From IMG/VR virus record IMGVR_UViG_3300035698_011584, positions 1-21,124 of that record: a stretch of 21,124 nt of DNA; one strand, 5' to 3'. Source of the DNA: a virus. The first letter of the stretch is position 1, and every line of letters begins with the position of its first letter. This document shows positions 13,145-21,124 of this stretch, piece after piece. The notes beneath the pieces were generated by a model. The model ran no database searches and was not told the DNA's origin. It saw only the letters and a program-made list of their open reading frames with translations. The position numbers and the translations under genes are program-made.

Positions 13145-13352
13145 AGTTTACATATCAAACTTTATTTCAGAAAATTCAATAAAGCTTAAATCTCTATTGA
13201 TCGCTTCTCTAATTGTGTATGCAACGATCCCATTTTTTGGAATAGATAACCCACTCGAACAATTTGTTGAATGGGTTATCAATTGTATGACGGGTTTAAG
13301 TTTAGATTTTACACCGAAGCTTTTTTCCTTTTTGATTCATTCCATTTTTTAA
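13131..13352 (+). CDS. Putative membrane protein, possibly holin-like
   Basis: The open frame extends up to 13038, but ATG 13131 is preferred because it follows GATAAAG and overlaps the previous stop as in a coupled gene. The 73-residue product has a basic N-terminus (MEKIKVYISNFISENSIKLK), a membrane helix (SLLIASLIVYATIPFFGI) and an amphipathic C-terminal part ending in 'FSFLIHSIF'. Together with the 35-residue protein it could form a two-component lysis set; no endolysin gene is in view. It ends 44 bases inside the convergent ERF gene. Confidence 0.58.
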   Translation: MEKIKVYISNFISENSIKLKSLLIASLIVYATIPFFGIDNPLEQFVEWVINCMTGLSLDFTPKLFSFLIHSIF

Positions 13353-13992
13353 ACATCTCATCAAATTTATTATAGTTACAATAAATTCCTTCGATTATAT
13401 CAGTTTCACTTCTATTAGTGTTTGTCTCTAATATTTCATCAAGAAATTTTCTTTTTTCAGATTTTGAATCTTTTAAAAGATCCTTTTCTATTAAGAATTT
13501 ATTTATTTCTTGAGTTGATATTTTAGATTTGAACGGTTGCTTTTGAGTTTCTTCAACAGGCTTTTCAATTGGCTTTTTAACAACTTTCTTTTTAATTTCA
13601 ATATTAATTTTTTTACCTTCCTCAGTTTCCATCTCCATTTCATCACAAACAAGACCAAAAAAACATACAGTTGCATATCTTCTGTAGTAGCTAATTAACG
13701 CTCCAAAGTTTTTTATATCACTTGTGACGTGAGAAATTTCAATCTCACTTTCCATAAATTCACCAGATTCATGATAAGCTTTTGAAATTAAGAAAGGTTT
13801 CTCATTTATTGTTTTAATTTGTTGAGTGAAAAATATTCTATTTTCTTTTAAAAGTGGTTGAAGCCTTACCCAAACAGATTGCAAATCTGCATATTTAAAT
13901 GCACGGTTACCAGTTTGTCCAGTTTTTGTTTTTGGTATGATACCGATATTTGATTGAATATTGATAAGAGCTTTAATCATTTGTTGATCCAT
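13309..13992 (-). CDS. ERF-family single-strand annealing protein
   Basis: 227 residues; ATG 13992 follows AAAAAAGGAAATTAAA. Residues 1-115 form the ERF domain: an N-terminal 'MIKALINIQSNIGIIPKTKT', 'AFKYADLQSVWVRLQPLLKE', 'ENRIFFTQQI' and the signature 'SYYRRYATVCFFGLVCDEME' at 101-120 (family: sYaRRYal..llgi..DeD). The middle (125-150) is Lys/Pro/Glu-rich and a helical C-terminal part follows. ERF proteins anneal complementary single strands during phage recombination and are usually paired with a nuclease; a PD-(D/E)XK protein is encoded at 18512-19081. Its 3' end overlaps a plus-strand gene. Confidence 0.9.
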   Translation of the reverse strand: MDQQMIKALINIQSNIGIIPKTKTGQTGNRAFKYADLQSVWVRLQPLLKENRIFFTQQIKTINEKPFLISKAYHESGEFMESEIEISHVTSDIKNFGALISYYRRYATVCFFGLVCDEMEMETEEGKKINIEIKKKVVKKPIEKPVEETQKQPFKSKISTQEINKFLIEKDLLKDSKSEKRKFLDEILETNTNRSETDIIEGIYCNYNKFDEMFKKWNESKRKKASV

Positions 13993-14014
13993 TTTAATTT
14001 CCTTTTTTAATGTT

Positions 14015-14060
14015 TGAACGATATAATATTAACATAAATCATTATTTAATGCTAACATTT
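14015..14060 (-). promoter_or_regulatory. Candidate early promoter upstream of the ERF gene
   Basis: Read leftward: GTTAGCATTAAAT, then TTATGTTAATATTATATCG. It shares the GTTA…TTAAAT block and the ATGTTA-TATTAT box with the stronger cassettes at 15601, 16440, 16801 and 17727, but the TGTTAT/ATAACA palindrome is not kept. It would give the ERF gene its own start, apart from readthrough from the upstream genes. Confidence 0.5.
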
Positions 14061-14064
14061 GTTA

Positions 14065-14364
14065 CTATTTATCTGAACCCGACCTTGCTTTTTTGATAAT
14101 TTCTAGATTTTTATTAAGGTTTGAGGATAAAACATCAATAAAATTATTCATTTCAGACTCCGTTAATTCTTCGATATGGTTCTCGATAATACTCAATAAA
14201 AGATGATTGTATAAATTTATACATAAAGAATTATTTATTTCATTAACCTGAACATATTTAAAGTTAATTTCACCTATTTCTTTAAGATGATAGGCAAGGT
14301 ATTCAACGTAAGAGTCAGGTCCATCACCTAATATTCTTGATCCATATTTTTCATTTTCCTTCAC
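14065..14364 (-). CDS. Hypothetical protein (99 aa)
   Basis: It starts inside the 3' end of the next gene upstream (14-base overlap), so the two are probably translated together. The product is helical and acidic (ILGDGPDSYVEYLAYHLKEI, EINNSLCINLYNHLLLSIIE, LTESEMNNFIDVLSSNLNKN) with a basic last stretch KKARSGSDK. No motif or family is recognised. Position between the ERF gene and a commonly ERF-linked coiled-coil protein suggests a DNA-metabolism or early role, without direct evidence. Confidence 0.7.
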   Translation of the reverse strand: MKENEKYGSRILGDGPDSYVEYLAYHLKEIGEINFKYVQVNEINNSLCINLYNHLLLSIIENHIEELTESEMNNFIDVLSSNLNKNLEIIKKARSGSDK

Positions 14365-14881
14365 TTTTACACCTCATTGTATATTCAGTTTTAACGAAAA
14401 TATCAACCCCTTCAATTTTACGAATACCCATTTTAATTGATTCCTTCACTTTCTTTTCATCAATCATGAGGAACTCACGAGTAACCTTTTCAAGATCGTC
14501 AACTTTAAATTTCCACACTTCTTTAGATGACATTTTGCCTTCATTTACTTCTATCATTAGATTACTAAAATTTGGCTCAAACATCGAATTTAACTCAAGC
14601 CAATACTCTAATTTTTCTTGTAATTTAGATTCTATATCTGCAAGCGTATTTGTATATTCTTTGACGAAAGCGTTGACAGCACGCTGAAAATCAAAGTGAG
14701 GCTTGATTATGTCCTTCCTCTTAGCTTCTAAACGTTTCTTTATATCTCTAGCTTGCATACCCATTGAAAGAGCTTGTTTGGCTCCTTCTTCGCTTTTGAT
14801 TTTGAAATCCTCAGAAGCTTCTATAAAAGGCTTCAAGTCAATTTCATTTTCGATGGTTGTTAGTGCTTTATTTATTTCCAT
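14351..14881 (-). CDS. Conserved coiled-coil early protein linked to annealing-protein genes
   Basis: 176 residues. The first 110 residues are long helices with heptads (ARDIKKRLEAKRKDIIKPHF, ADIESKLQEKLEYWLEL). The C-terminal block 'VWKFKVDDLEKVTREFLMID' then 'EKKVKESIKMGIRKIEGVDI' is a known pattern in phage proteins (…w.fev.D...VPreyl..de..v.kaik.G.r.IpGv.i), which often sit beside recombination genes. The biochemical role of this family is unknown to me. The RBS is weak: ATG 14881 follows the preceding stop by only two bases. Confidence 0.78.
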   Translation of the reverse strand: MEINKALTTIENEIDLKPFIEASEDFKIKSEEGAKQALSMGMQARDIKKRLEAKRKDIIKPHFDFQRAVNAFVKEYTNTLADIESKLQEKLEYWLELNSMFEPNFSNLMIEVNEGKMSSKEVWKFKVDDLEKVTREFLMIDEKKVKESIKMGIRKIEGVDIFVKTEYTMRCKSEGK

Positions 14882-14883
14882 TG

Positions 14884-15129
14884 TTATTTACCTACATTTG
14901 TTAAAAATTTATTAAAATTCATAGATTCTTTTAGTATTATTTCAATTTCTTGATTTGCCAAAGGTTTTGGCAAATTACCATCGAGATTTTTTTTAGGTTT
15001 AAGGTAACGTAATCTTTTATGTGAAAATAATAAATTTCCATTTTCATAACTAGACATATTAATAGTATTTAAATGATTTTCAATAGTAATAATATCTTGT
15101 AAAATATTATTGATTTTTTCAACTTCCAT
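14884..15129 (-). CDS. Hypothetical protein (81 aa)
   Basis: ATG 15129 follows AAAAAAGGAAATTAAA and an 18-nt hairpin (15148-15165) that separates it from the gene before. The product is helical with a basic middle (LLFSHKRLRYLKPKKN) and a 'KPLANQEIEIILKESMNFN' stretch. No family recognised. It is part of the leftward unit that runs on to the coiled-coil protein and the ERF gene. Confidence 0.68.
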   Translation of the reverse strand: MEVEKINNILQDIITIENHLNTINMSSYENGNLLFSHKRLRYLKPKKNLDGNLPKPLANQEIEIILKESMNFNKFLTNVGK

Positions 15130-15147
15130 TTTAATTTCCTTTTTTAA

Positions 15148-15165
15148 GGCGGTTTTTATACCGCC
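15148..15165 (-). promoter_or_regulatory. Intergenic hairpin, copy 1 (GGCGGTATAAAAACCGCC)
   Basis: Six-base-pair stem GGCGGT/ACCGCC with a 6-nt loop, lying between a stop codon (15179) and the RBS of the next gene (start 15129). No U-run follows on the minus strand; A-rich sequence and GGAAA follow instead, so it is not a normal terminator for the leftward genes. Two further copies lie at 16039-16056 and 17461-17478. Confidence 0.7.
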
Positions 15166-15178
15166 TGATTGATTAAAT

Positions 15179-15568
15179 TTATAATTCCCAACTTGTATGA
15201 ATATTTTCTAAAATATCTTGTTCTTCTTCTGTTTCTAGTAAATCTAATGTTTTAGAAAAACCACATAAATTATTTCGTTTGCTCCACATTTTATCGCAAA
15301 TATGATAACTAGTTTCTACAAAAAACTTTTTTAACAATTCTTGAGAATAGATTTTGTGAATACAATATTTTTTATTACCAGTTGTAGAACAAATACCCCT
15401 TTCTATTCTTGATTCAAATAAAAAAGTTAACTTTCCTAGTTTATTTTGAAGTTCATCATGAACACTTTCAGGAACACTCCAAAATTCACCATCCCATTTT
15501 CCACCTTTTTGTTTAATTTCGTCTTTAATTTCATATGAATTACCGACTAAAATTTTTGTATTTTCCAT
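15179..15568 (-). CDS. DUF5710-like N-terminal domain protein (129 aa)
   Basis: The frame is open to 15622, but ATG 15568 is chosen because it follows AAAAAAAAGGAAATTGAA and because the upstream part lies in a promoter. The N-terminal 35 residues (VGNSYEIKDEIKQKGGKWDG, then EFWSVPESVHDEL) match the DUF5710-like pattern '….yedKd.lK.lGarWD….kWyv', a small domain often attached to phage and plasmid DNA-metabolism proteins. The remainder has scattered cysteines (ERGICSTTG, KYCIHK, YHICDKMW, NNLCGF), possibly a metal site, and an acidic end. Overall function unknown. Confidence 0.72.
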   Translation of the reverse strand: MENTKILVGNSYEIKDEIKQKGGKWDGEFWSVPESVHDELQNKLGKLTFLFESRIERGICSTTGNKKYCIHKIYSQELLKKFFVETSYHICDKMWSKRNNLCGFSKTLDLLETEEEQDILENIHTSWEL

Positions 15569-15600
15569 TTCAATTTCCTTTTTTTTGTTGTCTTGTTGTT

Positions 15601-15644
15601 TGTTATGATATAATAATAACATGGGTTGTGATTTAACACAACAA
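15601..15644 (-). promoter_or_regulatory. Early promoter cassette A
   Basis: Leftward: TTGTGTTAAAT, then ATGTTATTATTATATC and ATAACA. It contains a -35-like TTGTGT, a spacer of about 17 bp and a TATTAT -10 box within TGTTAT-N9-ATAACA (15601-15621). The transcript would begin with a CAA-rich leader (AACAAACAACAAGACAACA) before the RBS at 15580. It is nearly identical to cassettes B and D. Confidence 0.75.
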
Positions 15645-15651
15645 AAAGATG

Positions 15652-15822
15652 TTATTTTTTACGATCAAGAAAAATAGTTGCTAAAATTGCGAGTAGGTTT
15701 CCACTACCAGCTTTTCGTTGGCGACCGCTTTTTGTAAGTGGTACACCTAAAAACCTTGAAACCTTTGATTTTTGAGCGGAGATGCCTAAAAATCTTTTCC
15801 AACTGAATCCTCCTCTATTCAT
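15652..15822 (-). CDS. Small basic phage protein (56 aa)
   Basis: ATG at 15822, three bases after the stop of the membrane protein before it, so probably coupled. The product begins 'MNRGGFSWKRFLGISAQKSK' and continues 'VSRFLGVPLTKSGRQRKAGS', then a hydrophobic end 'LLAILATIFLDRKK'. The 'GfSWKRalGis.aKskisr..GiPlTkSGRqrK.G' pattern is one I recall from small uncharacterised proteins of many phages, so the frame is very likely real. Strongly basic; a nucleic-acid or protein contact role is possible but unproven. Confidence 0.75.
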   Translation of the reverse strand: MNRGGFSWKRFLGISAQKSKVSRFLGVPLTKSGRQRKAGSGNLLAILATIFLDRKK

Positions 15823-15824
15823 TT

Positions 15825-16019
15825 TTATTTTGATTCTTCATTTTGAAAAGAAACAACTTCTTTTATTAAATTACAAATTTCCTTATGCCTTCTTGTTTTG
15901 GTTATTGATTTTAAAATCAGTATGCCAATAGTACCAACTATTAAAAATCCAAAGACTCCGAACAAAACTCCTGCAAACAATGACAAGAATCCAAAGACTA
16001 CACCTATAAATATATTCAT
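15825..16019 (-). CDS. Small membrane protein (64 aa)
   Basis: ATG 16019 follows AAAAAAGGAAATTAA and hairpin copy 2. Residues 1-40 are two closely spaced hydrophobic stretches (IFIGVVFGFLSLFAGVLFGV and FGFLIVGTIGILILKSI), with a basic cytoplasmic-looking tail KTRRHKEICNLIKEVV. It looks like a helical hairpin in the membrane. No family recognised; a superinfection-exclusion type role is one of several possibilities. Confidence 0.65.
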   Translation of the reverse strand: MNIFIGVVFGFLSLFAGVLFGVFGFLIVGTIGILILKSITKTRRHKEICNLIKEVVSFQNEESK

Positions 16020-16038
16020 TTAATTTCCTTTTTTAGTT

Positions 16039-16056
16039 GGCGGTTTTTACACCGCT
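16039..16056 (-). promoter_or_regulatory. Intergenic hairpin, copy 2 (AGCGGTGTAAAAACCGCC)
   Basis: Same hairpin as at 15148 and 17461, with one end base changed (G to A) that shortens the stem by one pair. It lies between the stop at 16072 and the RBS of the gene starting at 16019. On the plus strand it is followed by ATTTATTTTTTAG, so it could terminate rightward transcription; leftward it has no U-run. Confidence 0.68.
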
Positions 16057-16071
16057 ATTTATTTTTTAGAT

Positions 16072-16407
16072 TTAATAGCTAACCCCTAAGCAATCGTTAC
16101 AACCATTAATACAAATGCACTCATCTAAATTTATATCGCTTTCGTTTTCTTTCCAGTCCGATTTTAGAACTCTTTTGTATCCTTGATAATTCATATCGTC
16201 ACCGTTCCATGTAATATTTGATTTAACCAGTTCATATTTTTCATAGAGTACTGAAATACATTCTTGAATTTCTTCAAGATCTTCATAAGCTTCAACGTCA
16301 AGATTTTCGAGAATATAATCTTCTTCATCCTCTAAAATTTCTTCGAGTTCATCAATAGTTCTTTGTCGTCCTCTGAACTCAATTGTTGGGTGGTTTTGTA
16401 CAGTCAT
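16072..16407 (-). CDS. Acidic hypothetical protein (111 aa)
   Basis: First gene behind promoter cassette B; ATG 16407 follows AAAAAAAGGAAATTAAA. The product is very acidic (TIDELEEILEDEEDYILENL, EAYEDLEEIQECISVLYE) and ends with a cysteine-rich tail (LDECICINGCNDCLGVSY; four Cys within 12 residues) that may bind a metal. Strong negative charge is common in phage DNA-mimic inhibitors, but nothing else supports that here. No family recognised. Confidence 0.66.
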   Translation of the reverse strand: MTVQNHPTIEFRGRQRTIDELEEILEDEEDYILENLDVEAYEDLEEIQECISVLYEKYELVKSNITWNGDDMNYQGYKRVLKSDWKENESDINLDECICINGCNDCLGVSY

Positions 16408-16439
16408 TTTAATTTCCTTTTTTTGTTGTGTTGTTGTTT

Positions 16440-16480
16440 TGTTATGCTATAATAATAACATATGTTAGCATTTAACACAA
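16440..16480 (-). promoter_or_regulatory. Early promoter cassette B with palindromic operators
   Basis: Plus-strand reading: TGTTAT-N9-ATAACA (16440-16460), the perfect palindrome TAACATATGTTA (16456-16467) and TGTTA-GCATT-TAACA (16463-16477). Leftward this is TTGTGT, about 17 bp, TATTAT, then a CAA-rich leader up to the RBS. The stacked TGTTA/TAACA half-sites overlapping the -10 box look like binding sites for a repressor. Confidence 0.75.
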
Positions 16481-16500
16481 AGGTTAAACACTAACAATTA

Positions 16501-16523
16501 TAAAAAAGTCGTATTTAACGACT
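16501..16523 (-). terminator. Rho-independent terminator
   Basis: Leftward: AGTCGT-TAAAT-ACGACT followed by TTTTTT, a 6-bp stem with a U-run. It overlaps the stop codon of the gene at 16515-16778, so that gene ends inside its own terminator and is probably transcribed alone. Confidence 0.78.
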
Positions 16524-16778
16524 CCAACAATGTTTAATATTCCACTTAATCCATTGATCTTCGTCACCACTCATTACATACGCTACAGTTTTTAAAACTT
16601 TAATAGGTCTTGTTTCTCCAAGTCCGCCAACAAAAACTCTGTGCGTTGCTCCTTGATCTTTATCCCATTGAGAAAAAACTTTCGGGTTATCAGTGTATTC
16701 AAAGTATTGACCGAATTCCTTTTCAATGAATAAGCCTTGTATAGTTTGATAATCAATTTTTGTTCCAGCGTAAGCCAT
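16515..16778 (-). CDS. Hypothetical protein (87 aa)
   Basis: ATG 16778 follows AAGAGGTTTAAA, promoter cassette C lies directly upstream and a terminator directly downstream, so this is a single-gene unit. The sequence is aromatic-rich (YQTIQGLFIEKEFGQYFEYT, VFSQWDKDQGATHRVFVGGL, DEDQWIKWNIKHCWSR) with an ordered alpha/beta look. No family recognised. Confidence 0.68.
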   Translation of the reverse strand: MAYAGTKIDYQTIQGLFIEKEFGQYFEYTDNPKVFSQWDKDQGATHRVFVGGLGETRPIKVLKTVAYVMSGDEDQWIKWNIKHCWSR

Positions 16779-16800
16779 TTTAAACCTCTTGTGTTGTTGT

Positions 16801-16885
16801 TATTTATGCTATAATAATAACATAAGTTAACATTTACAACAAGCGTTTTTAGTTCTTTTTCGCAAAATAATATAAATAATTATGA
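16801..16885 (-). promoter_or_regulatory. Early promoter cassette C with upstream AT-rich block
   Basis: Leftward: AATTATTTATATTATTTTG, then TTGTTGTAAATG, ATGTTATTATTATAGC and a CAA-rich leader (AACAACAACACAAG). It matches cassettes A, B and D over the -10 region. Its AATTATTTATAT block about 30 bp farther upstream is shared with D and resembles an UP element. The outer palindrome arm is degenerate (TTTAT in place of TGTTAT). Confidence 0.7.
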
Positions 16886-16952
16886 AATACGGTCCTCACC
16901 TTATGATATCCATAAACCTTTAGATATTATGATTGTATGAAATTAAATAAAA
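16886..16952. other. Non-coding stretch with a small palindrome
   Basis: Between promoter cassette C and the end of the split ORF. It contains the inverted repeat TTATG-ATATC-CATAA (16901-16915) and otherwise AT-rich sequence. No gene or clear terminator is seen; the palindrome lacks a long U-run, so it is more likely a protein site or chance. Confidence 0.3.
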
Positions 16953-17198
16953 TTATCCTATTACATAACCAGAAAAAGGAGGTCCTTCAATATTAACGCT
17001 TTCAGGATCGTTTTTATAGTTTTCAATTTCAAACGGTTCAAGGGTTGTATATGATCTGGGATATTGTTTAAAGTTTGTTGCGAGCATTTCAACCTTTATT
17101 TCTCAAATTTCCATTGCCCTATATTCGCCTTCTTTAATGAATATTTCAGAATCTTGGGGTAAACTTATGAGTTGGTTAATTAAATCTTTTACTTTCAT
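16953..17198 (-). pseudogene. Small early gene interrupted by an in-frame TGA (31 + 49 codons)
   Basis: From ATG 17198 the frame gives 'MKVKDLINQLISLPQDSEIF' then IKEGEYRAMEI, a TGA at 17105-17103, and stays open for 49 more codons (EIKVEMLATNFKQYPRSYTT, LEPFEIENYKNDPESVNIEG, PPFSGYVIG) to TAA at 16953. The first part fits small phage proteins starting 'mkVkeLie.L..lPqD.ev'. The second half also reads like protein and has its own possible start (ATG at residue 38, after AAAGGTTGAA). It is either a gene broken by a nonsense mutation, two tiny genes, or a readthrough. No good RBS stands before ATG 17198. Confidence 0.55.
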
Positions 17199-17235
17199 TT
17201 ATAATTTCATTTTTTGTAAGTTTCAAAAAGTTTAT

Positions 17236-17439
17236 TTAGTTAATTTTTAATTGATTTATTGAATATTTAATCTGTGATATTCGTTTGTTAAAACTAGATA
17301 TATTTTCTTGAATATTTTTCAATTCATTTGTAACTTGTGTTTCCCTTATTTTATTTTGTCTAATAAGATATTCAGCATTTTCAATGTCGGCTTCAAGTGA
17401 AAAAATTGCAGATTCATGAGAATATTTTTCTTTTGACAT
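17236..17439 (-). CDS. Small coiled-coil protein (67 aa)
   Basis: ATG 17439 follows AAAAAAAGGAATTTACAA and hairpin copy 3. The whole product is helical with a heptad pattern (AIFSLEADIENAEYLIRQNK, ETQVTNELKNIQENISSFNK, RISQIKYSINQLKIN), so a coiled coil is likely. Similar in character to the 63-residue protein at 18031-18222. Function unknown. Confidence 0.65.
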   Translation of the reverse strand: MSKEKYSHESAIFSLEADIENAEYLIRQNKIRETQVTNELKNIQENISSFNKRISQIKYSINQLKIN

Positions 17440-17460
17440 TTGTAAATTCCTTTTTTTGTA

Positions 17461-17478
17461 GGCGGTTTTTACACCGCC
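17461..17478 (-). promoter_or_regulatory. Intergenic hairpin, copy 3 (GGCGGTGTAAAAACCGCC)
   Basis: Stem GGCGGT/ACCGCC, loop GTAAAA, located 7 bases after a stop codon (17485) and before the RBS of the gene starting at 17439. On the plus strand CTTTTTATTTTG follows, so it could stop rightward transcripts; leftward there is no U-run. Confidence 0.72.
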
Positions 17479-17484
17479 AACTTT

Positions 17485-17706
17485 TTATTTTGTTAATTCT
17501 TTTTTCAACCAACCGCCATTGTAAATTTCAACTTTAATGGCATTGCCTTCAATAAGTTCTTTGCCATATGAAACAGCCTCTCTTTTCAAATCAAACCAAA
17601 TATCAGCTAAATTATTAAAGCCTTCATTGTCATTCAATTCATAATCGCTATGAATAACTTTTAGTCTCCAACCTTTCAATCTTGATAAGCTCTCTTGATA
17701 ATCCAT
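17485..17706 (-). CDS. Hypothetical protein (73 aa)
   Basis: First gene behind promoter cassette D; ATG 17706 follows TAAGGGTTTAAG. The product begins 'MDYQESLSRLKGWRLKVIHS' and has 'FNNLADIWFDLKREAVSYGK' and a C-terminal 'IKVEIYNGGWLKKELTK'. A compact alpha/beta protein is plausible. No family recognised. Confidence 0.66.
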   Translation of the reverse strand: MDYQESLSRLKGWRLKVIHSDYELNDNEGFNNLADIWFDLKREAVSYGKELIEGNAIKVEIYNGGWLKKELTK

Positions 17707-17726
17707 CTTAAACCCTTATGTTGTTT

Positions 17727-17800
17727 TGTTATGCTATAATAATAACATATGTTCCCATTTAACACAAAGGCTTTTTGCACAAAAAAATATAAATAATTCA
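17727..17800 (-). promoter_or_regulatory. Early promoter cassette D with upstream AT-rich block
   Basis: Leftward: AATTATTTATATTTTTTTG, TTTGTGTTAAATG, ACATATGTTATTATTATAGC and ATAACA. The 21-bp TGTTAT-N9-ATAACA element (17727-17747) is identical to that of cassette B. The leader is CAA-rich (AACAAAACAACA). It drives the genes at 17706, 17439 and probably 17198. Confidence 0.74.
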
Positions 17801-17813
17801 GAATGTTGATTGG

Positions 17814-18029
17814 CTAGTTTTTTTGACGACCATTTTTTGATGAGTTTGACCTCTCATTAGCAAGCCTCCAAGCAATGACAGAATCTATTCTATCTATATA
17901 TAGACCTTCATAATTATTTGCTCCTGATCGCCAACCGACACAACATTTACCGTTTTTTCCCACTAATTTACACAAATCAAAAGGTTTTGGACGATCCGCA
18001 GGGCATTCAATTTTTTTAAAATCACTCAA
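17814..18029 (-). CDS. Hypothetical protein (71 aa), TTG start
   Basis: TTG at 18029 lies one base after the previous stop and seven bases after GGGAGG, so the RBS decides this unusual start. The product has 'KKIECPADRPKPFDLCKLVG' and 'NGKCCVGWRSGANNYEGLYI', with Cys at 9, 20, 29 and 30, and a basic end (RSNSSKNGRQKN). A small metal-binding domain is possible. No family recognised. Confidence 0.66.
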   Translation of the reverse strand: MSDFKKIECPADRPKPFDLCKLVGKNGKCCVGWRSGANNYEGLYIDRIDSVIAWRLANERSNSSKNGRQKN

Positions 18030-18030
18030 A

Positions 18031-18222
18031 CTAAAACCCTCCCAATTTTTTAATTGAATTTTCTAACTCCATTTTTTCAATATGATGATTCATCATTCTA
18101 CTTTCAATTTCTTCAATTCTTAGGGAATATGTTTTTTCTCTTTGAGTATCTTTATCAATTTCCTTGATAACATTTTCAAGTTTTTGTTTTAAATGTTTTA
18201 ATTTAGGTGAATTATTTTTCAT
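18031..18222 (-). CDS. Small coiled-coil protein (63 aa)
   Basis: The start overlaps the previous stop as TAATG (18220-18224). The sequence is almost pure helix (KLKHLKQKLENVIKEIDKDT, REKTYSLRIEEIESRMMNHH, IEKMELENSIKKLGGF). A coiled-coil homo- or hetero-oligomer is likely. Function unknown. Confidence 0.66.
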   Translation of the reverse strand: MKNNSPKLKHLKQKLENVIKEIDKDTQREKTYSLRIEEIESRMMNHHIEKMELENSIKKLGGF

Positions 18223-18515
18223 TATTCACTTTCCTTTTCTTCTAAATTGTTAACTTCTTTAAAATAAATCTTGCTAAAATCTCGCATAAAATCAAATGTT
18301 GTAAGCACTTGTTCAAGTGCGTTTTTGTTTAGTTCGTCCATTGCCTTATCTAAAAAAATGTTTGATAAATCATTCTTTTCTATTATGTTTCTTAAAAAAG
18401 AATTTAGAGTAAACGCCATCATGAAAGCGTTAAGCGTTGTAATATCCATTTCTTTTAATGATTTTCTAAATATTGATTCAGCTTTTTCAATATTTGTTTC
18501 TATTTGTTTCATCAT
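18222..18515 (-). CDS. Hypothetical helical protein (97 aa)
   Basis: ATG 18515 overlaps the nuclease stop (ATGATG region at 18510-18515; a second Met follows at codon 2). Helical throughout: 'NIEKAESIFRKSLKEMDITT', 'LNAFMMAFTLNSFLRNIIEK', 'ALEQVLTTFDFMRDFSKIYF'. Coupling to the nuclease suggests a joint role, but no motif is seen. Confidence 0.66.
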   Translation of the reverse strand: MMKQIETNIEKAESIFRKSLKEMDITTLNAFMMAFTLNSFLRNIIEKNDLSNIFLDKAMDELNKNALEQVLTTFDFMRDFSKIYFKEVNNLEEKESE

Positions 18516-19081
18516 TTACCCTTGAAAAATTTGTATAGTTCTAGTGCATTGAAAAATAATATTTTGTCAATTTCATCACTTGAGTATTGCTTGTATTTTG
18601 GTATTCCCCCTTTTCTATCAAGCATTAAACACGCTCTGGAGGTTTTGTCAAAATCAAATTCAGATTCAACTAAATATTGATAAGCGGAGGTTTGTAGTCT
18701 CCATGTTTTTGATTCTAATTGTGGCGTTTTTAAATCCACAATACATATAGTGTCAGAGCCTTTCAATTTCAAGATCAAATCAATTTGACCTGTAATTTTG
18801 TGAGTTTCACAAAAAATCCTTTGCTCTGTATAGATCGGATAATCAACAACAGAATCAAACCATTTTACAAATGATTCAAAATAAGGTTTGCAATCATCAT
18901 CAACAGGCTCTATAAGTAGATTTTTAGCGTATAATTCGCAAAAACGATGGACCCTTGTTCCTCGATCACAAGCGTTTTTTAGCACTACAGGGTCGATATT
19001 GCTAAAATCACTATAAAAGCTGAGAACGCTTGTGATTCGGGTGTAATTATTTAAATCTTTAGTTGTTTCCATAGTCTCCAT
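18512..19081 (-). CDS. PD-(D/E)XK nuclease (RecB/Cas4-like), probable recombination exonuclease
   Basis: 189 residues. Motifs in order: 'RGTRVHRFCELYAK' (H45, E49), the N-terminal helix typical of RecB-like nucleases; 'YTEQRIFCE' (E86); 'KITGQIDLILKL' (D101); 'CIVDLKTPQ' (D116-x-K118, the PD-(D/E)XK core); and 'RLQTSAYQYLVESEF' (Q130, Y134). All key acidic residues and the lysine are present, so it should be active. With the ERF annealer it would form a phage two-component recombinase: the nuclease resects ends, the annealer pairs strands. First gene of the leftward block. Confidence 0.86.
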   Translation of the reverse strand: METMETTKDLNNYTRITSVLSFYSDFSNIDPVVLKNACDRGTRVHRFCELYAKNLLIEPVDDDCKPYFESFVKWFDSVVDYPIYTEQRIFCETHKITGQIDLILKLKGSDTICIVDLKTPQLESKTWRLQTSAYQYLVESEFDFDKTSRACLMLDRKGGIPKYKQYSSDEIDKILFFNALELYKFFKGK

Positions 19082-19240
19082 ATTTTCTAAGGTTGTTATA
19101 ATAATTGGGGAGTTTCAAAGAGTTGGTTGATAGCTTTTTGAACTTCCCATTTAATATCTTAATGTTAACACCTTTTCCCTTTACTTAAAAGACTTATTAG
19201 CTTAAAATTGCAAATACTAACATTTAAATAGGAGGAAATT
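19082..19240. promoter_or_regulatory. Divergent control region with inverted repeat
   Basis: Leftward: a -10-like TATTAT in AATTATTATAAC (19093-19106), like the early cassettes but without a clear -35. An imperfect inverted repeat GGGGAGTTTCAAAG (19107-19120) / CTTTTTGAACTTCCC (19134-19148) lies upstream of it and could be an operator. TGTTAACA occurs at 19163-19170. Rightward: AGGAGG at 19231 before the TTG start at 19241; no clear rightward -35/-10 pair is seen by eye. The layout is that of a phage genetic switch between early genes and a regulator. Confidence 0.5.
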
Positions 19241-19441
19241 TTGGAATTGAGGGTTTGGTTAGCAAAAAAAAACATGAAAGATTCGGAGCTTGCGGATATT
19301 GTAGGCGTTTGCAGACAAGCGATTTGGAAAATAAAAAACAATTATCCAGTAGTGGAAGAAACTTCAAAAAAGATTGAGTTCATAACTGGTGGTTGTGTCA
19401 AGCCTGCAATCAGTAATAAGGGCAAAAGAGCTAAGTTGTGA
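19241..19441 (+). CDS. Small helix-turn-helix protein, Cro/YdaS-like
   Basis: TTG start with a strong AGGAGG RBS. Residues 8-45 (AKKNMKDSELADIVGVCRQA, then IWKIKNNYPVVEETSKKIEF) show a Cro-type HTH: 'lk..elA..vGvsrqaI.kI…' with the turn at IVGVCRQ. 66 residues is the size of Cro/YdaS-like regulators, and a basic tail ends the protein (KGKRAKL). Divergent to the early block, it is the best candidate for the protein acting on the TGTTA/TAACA sites; this is inference. Confidence 0.74.
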   Translation: MELRVWLAKKNMKDSELADIVGVCRQAIWKIKNNYPVVEETSKKIEFITGGCVKPAISNKGKRAKL

Positions 19442-19474: not shown

Positions 19475-19990
19475 ATGCAACTAAAAAATACAAAGGGCGA
19501 TATGGCTTCACATTACATGTATAAAAAAAAAGAGTATCAAATTTGGCAGAGAATGAAAACGTCTTGCTATAACAAGAATAATCCATCTTTCAAAACATAT
19601 GGAGCTAGAGGAATTTTTCTTTGCGATGAATGGAAAGAAAATTTCTATAAATTTCATCTTGACATGGGCGACATACCAATTGAATGTACTGGAATTGAAT
19701 TGATTGACTTAAGCAAAAACTTTTCAAAAGAAAATTGTAGATGGGTTTCAAAAGAGAAACGTAGAAAGCTTGATGAAATGCCTAATCGACACAAACGAGC
19801 ATTAAGCGGTAGATATAAAGAGCCGAAAAGAATCACAATAACATTTGATAAAGAGTATTTTAATTTCCTTCAAAGAATGGCTATTGAAAAGAGTAGGCAA
19901 ACAGGTGTTCCAGTTTCAACAATGACGTATATAGCACAAATTGTTAAAGAATCAGTTCCGATGAATGAGCAAAAAGATATGTTCAAGTGA
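19475..19990 (+). CDS. HNH/AP2-type phage protein fused to a ribbon-helix-helix-like tail
   Basis: ATG 19475; ATG 19502 is an alternative start. Residues 15-110: 'KKEYQIWQRMKTSCYNKNNP', 'FKTYGARGIFLCDEWKENFY' and 'NFSKENCRWVSKEKRRKLDE' match the phage family '…yniw..MkqRC.n…..Y..YGgRGI.vc.eW…F..f…mg..P.g..lDRiDn.g.Y.p.NCrWat..eq.rNrr'. Here the LDRIDN part reads GIELIDLSKN, so a key Asp-Arg is lost and catalysis is doubtful. The C-terminus (RITITFDKEYFNFLQRMAIE, then QTGVPVSTMTYIAQIVKESV) looks like a ribbon-helix-helix DNA-binding fold. Likely a DNA-binding protein rather than a working homing enzyme. Confidence 0.68.
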   Translation: MQLKNTKGDMASHYMYKKKEYQIWQRMKTSCYNKNNPSFKTYGARGIFLCDEWKENFYKFHLDMGDIPIECTGIELIDLSKNFSKENCRWVSKEKRRKLDEMPNRHKRALSGRYKEPKRITITFDKEYFNFLQRMAIEKSRQTGVPVSTMTYIAQIVKESVPMNEQKDMFK

Positions 19991-20253: not shown

Positions 20254-20472
20254 ATGGCTTCTGTTACCCCAAGACATAACAAAAATGGTTCAATTTCATG
20301 GCGAGTTAAATTTCGCAGGAAAGGCATTAAAACATTTTGTACTGCATTTACAACGCAAGAAAAAGCTATTGAATTTGCTGATAAATACGAAAACAAATAT
20401 TGCTTAAACCCTGATAATTTTAATTGGGATCATTTAAAGCAAATACGACTAAGAGAATTTGGTTTAGATTAA
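20254..20472 (+). CDS. Small arm-type/AP2-like DNA-binding protein (72 aa)
   Basis: ATG directly abuts the previous stop (TAAATG). The sequence 'ASVTPRHNKNGSISWRVKFR', 'RKGIKTFCTAFTTQEKAIEF' and 'ADKYENKYCLNPDNFNWDHL' has the three-strand-plus-helix pattern of the integrase arm-type domain (g.w…vr.rG..…..F.t...A..wa). No integrase catalytic domain follows, so it is a free-standing domain. It may regulate or guide recombination; it could also be a remnant of an integrase. Confidence 0.66.
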   Translation: MASVTPRHNKNGSISWRVKFRRKGIKTFCTAFTTQEKAIEFADKYENKYCLNPDNFNWDHLKQIRLREFGLD

Positions 20473-20480
20473 AAAATTTC

Positions 20481-20525
20481 AGGGCAATAGCTCAATTGGT
20501 CAGAGCGTCAAACTCATCTAATTGA
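20481..20525 (+). tRNA. 5' half of a tRNA gene, interrupted by the mobile element (Met-like anticodon CAT)
   Basis: Acceptor strand AGGGCAA, TA, D-stem GCTC, loop AATTGGTCA, D-stem GAGC, G, then TCAAA and CTCAT… fit tRNA positions 1 to about 36 exactly; CAT would be the anticodon. The expected continuation (TAA-TTTGA, variable loop, T-arm GGTTC…) is not found; instead CTAATTGACGAGGT and a transposon hairpin follow. The break lies between about 20517 and 20531. The 3' half should lie beyond the right edge if the element is a simple insertion. Confidence 0.62.
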
Positions 20526-20568
20526 CGAGGTGGAAACCCCTGGCTTTAGCCATGGGGAGGAAACCTCG
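20526..20568 (+). repeat. Left-end hairpin of the IS200/IS605-type element
   Basis: Inner stem CCCCTGGC-TTTA-GCCA-T-GGGG (20537-20557, one bulged T) inside an outer stem CGAGGT (20526-20531)/ACCTCG (20563-20568). Single-strand hairpins of the CCCCTGGC..GCCA.GGGG kind mark the ends of many IS200/IS605 elements. TTGAC (20522-20526) or CTCAT (20513-20517) could be the insertion target; neither can be fixed from one end. Confidence 0.75.
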
Positions 20569-20615
20569 CTCCTTTCTTGTTGCTTTAATTCCTTATTTGT
20601 TGTATTCTTTCCTAT

Positions 20616-21124
20616 ATGAAAAGAACGATATCTCTTAAGCTTGATTTGTCTCCAGAACAATATGAAGCATTGATTAATACACAGCTGGCTTTTTCCAAGG
20701 CATGTAACGAATCTATCCCGTTTGTCGTCGATAATCGTTGCTGGAATCGTGTAGCCTTGCACCATCTTTGCTACTACAATATTAGGGGAAGTATTCCTAA
20801 TATTGGATCTCAAATGGTTTGCAATGCGATTCAAAAAGTTTGTTCTTCCTATAAAGTTCTTAAAATAAAAAGATCTCAAGATGTTCCAGTTATAACTTTC
20901 AAGGATACTGGTTCCGTTCACTACGATAAAAAAACGTATTCCATTAAGGGAGGAAAGCTTTCTCTTTATACTGTCGATGGACGGATTAAATGTGATTTTA
21001 TTACAGGCGACTTTCAAAAAGAATATCTTAAAGAAGGTGCTGTTAAAGAGGCGGAACTTATTAGAAAGGGGAAGAGATGGTTTTTCAACCTTGTCCTCGA
21101 CCTTCCCGACAAAGAGTTTAAGAA
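20616..21124 (+). CDS. tnpB: TnpB RNA-guided nuclease/OrfB, 3' partial
   Basis: From ATG 20616 the frame is open to the window end (169 codons). It begins 'MKRTISLKLDLSPEQYEALI', then 'FSKACNESIPFVVDNRCWNR', 'YYNIRGSIPNIGSQMVCNAI', 'QKVCSSYKV' and 'CDFITGDFQKEYLKEGAVKE' with 'RKGKRWFFNLVLDLPD'. This is the usual N-terminal wedge and helical part of TnpB up to the '…kgkwfl..t.e.p' entry to the RuvC domain; the RuvC DEDs and zinc finger would follow. No RBS is obvious, common for tnpB. TnpB is an omega-RNA-guided DNA nuclease that helps the element persist. The long minus-strand frame opposite it is a shadow. Confidence 0.86.
   Translation, partial: MKRTISLKLDLSPEQYEALINTQLAFSKACNESIPFVVDNRCWNRVALHHLCYYNIRGSIPNIGSQMVCNAIQKVCSSYKVLKIKRSQDVPVITFKDTGSVHYDKKTYSIKGGKLSLYTVDGRIKCDFITGDFQKEYLKEGAVKEAELIRKGKRWFFNLVLDLPDKEFK

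Follow-up and report, generated by a model that had tools for sequence, protein, structure and literature searches.

Arbiol et al. reportedly described, in 2010, promoter-plus-stem-loop (PeSL) elements as an early promoter and a stem-loop combined in one element. In T4-type phages these repeated early-promoter modules lie between small accessory genes, in a plastic region where relatives differ in gene content, according to a review that cites this work (PMC3950731). In the haloarchaeal virus HGTV-1, a conserved TATA-like box and an inverted repeat motif precede most open reading frames (ORFs) of one arm (PMC3950731). The start-associated sequences (SAS) of cluster K mycobacteriophages are a 13-bp GGGATAGGAGCCC at start codons; these repeats and their extended forms (ESAS) stand where translation of certain non-structural genes begins, and some have an upstream inverted repeat (PMC3203893, PMC12699233). 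Operators and stoperators of cluster A mycobacteriophages are sites of one phage repressor at various places in a genome, with a motif that drifts with the repressor (PMC6550527). Here we describe a system that resembles the T4-type and mycobacteriophage systems and differs from them in detail. It consists of four promoter cassettes (A to D) and three hairpins among small leftward genes of the 21,124-base IMG/VR virus record IMGVR_UViG_3300035698_011584, the whole of which was analyzed and is called the window below. The cassettes are probably copied operator-bearing early promoters of a single regulon, copied along with inserted genes.

Each cassette precedes a small gene:

15569–15644, minus strand: cassette A, a TTGTGT-N17-TATTAT promoter with a CAA leader and a ribosome-binding site (RBS) block; precedes gene 15179–15568.
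16408–16496, minus strand: cassette B; precedes gene 16072–16407.
16779–16881, minus strand: cassette C, with AATTATTTATAT upstream; precedes gene 16515–16778.
17707–17798, minus strand: cassette D, with AATTATTTATAT upstream; precedes gene 17485–17706.

The preliminary description of this DNA had reported a nearly identical promoter in four leftward intergenic regions, and comparison of the cassettes bears this out far beyond what shuffled sequence gives. The string ATGTTATTATTATANCATAA occurs exactly four times in the window, only on the minus strand (15603, 16442, 16804 and 17729). Over the 46-nt core, B and D agree at 44 positions and the other pairs at 35–38, the comparison of A with C being gapped (35 of 49 columns). 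With a matrix built from A–D the four score 62–70, against 7.5 for the best of 60 shuffles. When the noncoding DNA of the window was compared with itself, B and D aligned with 83.5 bits, compared with at most 26.9 bits in five shuffles, and 18 alignments exceeded the shuffle maximum. The CAA-rich leaders and RBSs described earlier are also present, the latter as GGAAA (A and B), AGAGG (C) and AAGGG (D), as is the upstream block common to C and D (AATTATTTATAT at 16881 and 17798). Two details hold for A, B and D and fail in C: the TTGTGTTAAAT box, which in C reads TTGTTGTAAAT (two mismatches), and the dyad TGTTAT-N9-ATAACA, whose right arm in C is ATAAAT. Since this dyad is broken in C and was not found in relatives, it was rejected as an operator. 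A third copy of AATTATTTATAT, at +12647 and followed by ATGTTATATTATCC, lies upstream of a small rightward gene and is perhaps a related promoter on the opposite strand.

The copies are visibly mosaic. The leader of B pairs with that of A (30/34) and the leader of C with that of D (19/24), while the core of B pairs with that of D (44/46); the upstream flank AATTATTTATAT pairs C with D, unlike the core. That leaders, flanks and cores pair differently among A–D fits exchange between copies.

The cassettes are part of an early region that runs leftward from an exonuclease through about 12 small genes, gene 14351 and gene 14065 to ERF, with a helix-turn-helix (HTH) gene diverging from it:

19241–19441, plus strand: 66-amino-acid HTH protein of Cro/C1 type, encoded in the direction opposite to the early genes; a candidate for the regulator of the cassettes.
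19082–19240: control region between the HTH and exonuclease genes, with TGTTAACATTAA (19170–19159) and TGTTAGTATTTG (19222–19211).
18512–19081, minus strand: PD-(D/E)XK exonuclease, the first leftward gene; an anchor also found in relatives.
15652–15822, minus strand: gene 15652, a small conserved protein within the array; the copy in relative L275 is 80% identical.
14351–14881, minus strand: gene 14351, with a weak phrog_10477 match; the second anchor also found in relatives.
13993–14071, minus strand: ERF promoter, a diverged cassette with TGTTAGCATTAA (14057–14046), TGTTAATATTAT (14034–14023) and the shared RBS block.
13309–13992, minus strand: ERF-type single-strand annealing protein.

The control region and the promoters of the window have the motif TGTTARYATTWA in common, and cassette B contains a double operator-like inverted repeat, TGTTAGTGTTTAAC..GTTAAATGCTAACA (16496–16463; two sites in 34 nt). 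In nine other contigs, the HTH control regions and internal promoters, 2,373 bp together, hold four perfect sites; shuffling gave a mean of 0.03 sites, and none of 300 shuffles reached four. With one mismatch allowed and the window included, two sites were found in 13.5 kb of other noncoding DNA and two in 141 kb of coding DNA. Among the relatives the motif lies at the internal promoter (in four) and in the control region of the divergent Cro-like gene (cleanly in one). The phage to which contig L281 belongs (G007) has just three perfect sites in 30 kb, located in the HTH control region, at the internal promoter and at 22778. Sites in the spacer or upstream of the −35 hexamer cannot be accounted for by a plain promoter.

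The HTH protein of the window gives weak Pfam HTH matches. Its structural model (mean predicted local distance difference test score 85.7) matches Cro/C1-type regulators in the PDB, including 434 Cro and Xfaso 1 Cro, with template modelling (TM) scores of about 0.6. The HTH proteins of relatives align with it over their full length at 26–55% identity, and the gene is kept beside the exonuclease end in those relatives whose contigs extend there. In contig L008 the recognition helix differs and the TGTTARYATTWA motif is absent from the regions tested. As in Cro/C1 systems, a small HTH protein is thus encoded beside the promoters that it would control (at the TM score given and with weak E-values), and operator-like sites that occur at the control region and target promoters and are rare elsewhere were found in the window and in L281, and partly in the other relatives.

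Two weaker cassette versions had also been reported. The one at 14015, in the ERF promoter, is marginal as a cassette (matrix score 6.5, compared with 7.5 for the best shuffle), although its RBS block is identical to that of B and it holds a perfect TGTTARYATTWA site. The one at 19093 fell outside the ten best minus-strand matrix matches and was rejected as a cassette; its region nonetheless contains TGTTAACATTAA, listed above.

Relatives of the locus were obtained by searching with the exonuclease, which gave distant ones, and by alignments of the exonuclease and gene 14351, which gave nearer ones; single-protein searches with ERF and with the tail sheath returned no loci. Nine contigs (L275–L281, L284 and L288) keep the exonuclease and gene 14351 with variable small genes between them, which differ from phage to phage. 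The closest exonuclease in the set, that of L275, is 61% identical to that of the window. Gene 15652 is kept in seven of the nine. The gap between the anchors is shortest in L284, at about 0.2 kb, and longest in the window, at 3.6 kb. Within it, L275, L276, L281, L284 and L288 each have a single promoter of similar build, compared with four in the window; it has a TTG hexamer, a distance of 16–18 nt and TAATAT, CATAAT or CAAAAT. In L288 it starts 53 nt behind the exonuclease gene, is the best matrix match among the relatives and shares the identical leader start CATAACAAACAAC with cassette A. A clear equivalent was not found in L277–L280. Genes 15652 and 14351 are separated by 11–24 nt in L276, L277 and L280 and are neighbours in L278 and L279 too, while in the window they are split by a unit led by cassette A:

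14882–15651, minus strand: insert of 770 nt between genes 15652 and 14351, made up of cassette A, gene 15179, a hairpin and gene 14884.

The idea of interchangeable units thus stands in part: the modules are genuine, occupy fixed positions and accompany small genes that are missing from this locus in relatives, and one unit appears to have been inserted between genes adjacent in five relatives. Neither the cassette nor the hairpin of the window was seen around other genes in the relatives, none of which is closer than the 61% given above. The exact cassette core is absent from the viral_contigs collection, and the hairpin, at up to two mismatches, from 11 relatives, contigs of 41 kb included. 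The ERF gene stands behind gene 14351 where L275 (7326–8156) and L288 (6302–7162) encode a RecT-like protein. G007 carries a different cassette of its own twice, with 25 nt identical and a similar leader, the second copy (22778) preceding an unrelated gene; a promoter module has therefore been copied in another lineage as well, with another sequence. Noncoding self-comparison of the relatives missed this pair, probably because spurious ORFs masked it, and the motif search found it. Together these comparisons suggest that cassette copying accompanied gene gain at this locus.

Small acidic proteins of the gap share a C-terminal C-x2-C-L-x3-[YW] motif and hardly anything more (L276 9531–9722, L284 1908–2057, L288 4885–5091, L281 9795–9956, L275 4999–5277 and window 16072–16407). 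The zinc-knuckle-like resemblance of gene 16072 to the first genes in the gap of relatives was not used, because it consists of a short C-terminal motif only.

Second genes of the units had been described as preceded by an 18-nt hairpin and an A-tract/GGAAATT RBS instead of a promoter. Units A, B and D do have the hairpin and a common A-tract/GGAA RBS there, whereas unit C has no second gene and ends in a hairpin resembling an intrinsic terminator:

15148–15165, minus strand: hairpin GGCGGTATAAAAACCGCC of unit A, before gene 14884–15129 and followed by the RBS block; fold z-score −2.22.
16039–16056, minus strand: hairpin AGCGGTGTAAAAACCGCC of unit B, before gene 15825–16019; end pair broken (A.C); fold z-score −0.58.
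17461–17478, minus strand: hairpin GGCGGTGTAAAAACCGCC of unit D, before gene 17236–17439; fold z-score −3.58.
16505–16525, minus strand: T-tailed, terminator-like hairpin at the end of unit C, immediately upstream of cassette B.

The string AAAAAAGGAA is present six times in the window, each time as an RBS block: in cassettes A and B, before ERF and before each of the three genes that follow a hairpin. The exact form of the hairpin, GGCGGTRTAAWAACCGCC, was found in at least 119 viral contig stretches from very different phages, usually in the order stop, hairpin, RBS and ATG (for example L013 8192–8175 and 7023–7006, L118 6860, L067 9815 and L141 4092); the flank TTTAATYAATCAGGCGGTATAAAAACCGCCT is common to L012 and the window. 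Among the matches listed, merging similar flanks left 37 contexts with 28% to 60% G+C. An upstream stop was present in 26 of these 37, and an ATG with an ORF in the same direction lay within 80 nt in 27, mostly 14–27 nt downstream; where this stem carried another loop, the downstream figure was 19 of 57. In an unbiased sample of AGGCGGT-N6-ACCGCCT, loops such as TGCAAG predominated, many as part of T-tailed terminators, which ruled out RUAAWA as the sole loop on this stem. The many other loops favour repeated use of a stable hairpin over descent as the cause of its recurrence. In cellular genomes of one phylum the hairpin was found in 1 of 296 and a permuted loop in 0 of 296, too few for comparison. 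Comparison with Rfam turned up nothing credible in the window and no match at the hairpins of eight further contigs, and the papers searched had nothing on GUAAUA hexaloops. Elsewhere in L067 (728–797, minus strand) there is a Type II hammerhead ribozyme match of 33.3 bits, just under the Rfam gathering score.

Compared with the described systems, the likeness to PeSLs noted in the preliminary description is one of function, an analogy only, because promoter and hairpin are alternatives in the window and do not form one element: the hairpins precede second genes without a promoter, and cassettes A, B and D lack a GC-rich hairpin. The phage is also not T4-type, having no nucleotide match among phage records and an exonuclease/ERF region beside a divergent HTH gene, and no element of the window was seen around different genes in the relatives compared, the closest of which has 61% identity in the exonuclease. 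SAS differ in their unrelated sequence, the start blocks of the window being AAAAAAGGAAATTAAAATG-like, and ESAS arms are imperfect 17-mers, whereas the hairpin here has 6 bp and a fixed loop and promoter cassettes dominate. Stoperators are many oriented, elongation-stopping sites outside promoters; sites of the type found in the window lie at promoters, with only the two one-mismatch sites in coding DNA noted above. HGTV-1 differs in having archaeal signals and a single combined element.

We propose that cassettes A–D are paralogous sigma-70-type early promoters with their leaders, carrying predicted sites for one Cro-like regulator (19241–19441), and that one regulon would take in the control region of the early genes, the internal promoters and the promoter of ERF, more likely under repression than activation by the HTH protein. 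Relatives keep a single internal promoter between the anchors, while in the lineage of the window the module was presumably duplicated along with the gain of new small genes; a gene placed behind another would have come with a hairpin and RBS block and no promoter. Several observations weigh against this proposal. Although the motif can be read from the window alone, its consensus was fixed after the relatives had been inspected, so the motif test was not fully blind. The motif is degraded in A and D; no site within two mismatches was found in the regions tested of L276, L279 and L280; and some sites overlap an extended −10 element (TGTTAATAT) and could be plain promoter. E-values of the fold search are 0.02 or weaker. 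Cassettes A, B and D match the sigma-70 consensus at 8 of 12 positions, and a consensus scan listed C alone of the four, in a scan that was itself uninformative (43 found, 38 expected). Shuffling of small genes by ERF is possible. That the repeats are kept mainly as short homologies for ERF annealing and exchange of small genes, as proposed for PeSLs, we consider unlikely: the mosaic copies, the module-led unit between conserved genes, the differing small genes at the same locus and the ERF gene with its shared RBS block in place of a RecT-like protein would all suit it, but none of the relatives compared shows the same cassette around other genes, gene content in most of them is variable with a single cassette or none at all, and shared function accounts for the likeness without a role in recombination. 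Here the operator-like motif and the divergent Cro-like gene offer a simpler reason why the copies stay alike. It is also quite improbable that promoter and leader are plain recent duplicates that boost the expression of small genes, share no regulator and are alike only because they are young. The window is indeed an outlier among relatives with one promoter, but the motif recurs at the same promoter in other phages, in L281 also in the HTH control region, and L281's phage independently copied a different cassette with the same motif.

The hairpins most likely act as insulators or stabilizers of the mRNA, between the stop codon of one gene and the RBS of the following one. Somewhat doubtful, by comparison, is a role as partial transcription terminators that would make the second gene weaker than the first. 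A T-tract lies beside some copies in other contigs (L053 family), with other loops this stem often forms a T-tailed terminator and two hairpins of the window score as terminator-like on the plus strand; in the direction of the early genes, however, an A-rich tail leads into the RBS, and ATGs opening an ORF follow the hairpin more often than they follow other loops, by the counts given above. A broader, tentative and rather unlikely generalization of the regulon proposal is that a family of phages assembles its early accessory region from portable start modules of two kinds, promoter-operator-leader and hairpin-RBS, each of which moves together with a gene. Within each phage, the phage's own Cro-like regulator would keep the promoter module alike, placing an incoming gene at once under common control, and the hairpin module (GGCGGU-RUAAWA-ACCGCC) would be common to unrelated phages.

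Megablast of the window against 50,697 phage records gave no nucleotide match. The rightward part is a contractile-tail region whose tail sheath (phrog_205) is nearest to those of Pseudomonas phages of 92–102 kb (36–39%). At 16953–17198 an in-frame TGA splits a gene that spans 81 amino acids in L275 (4412–4657) and is probably broken here. An HNH-endonuclease-like protein (19475–19990) adjoins the HTH gene, an arrangement kept in relatives, and its final 27 residues weakly match a transcription-regulator family. At the right end (20470–21124), a tRNA-like stretch not called by ARAGORN, a hairpin-rich end and a transposase N-terminus (TIGR01765 match below cut-off) look like an insertion element beside a tRNA gene or attachment site. 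Iteron-like repeats TGTAAACAnnnGTAAACAAAAnCGACC occur in two relatives of isolate-genome origin, G003 (30461–32425; L300) and G006 (28774–29548; L310).

How newcomer genes become correctly regulated is rarely visible, and the function of many small early phage genes is unknown. At this locus one can read the anchors, the site still empty in relatives and the module that arrived with the gene. If the proposed reading is true, accessory genes acquired recently could be recognized in practice by their repeated start modules.

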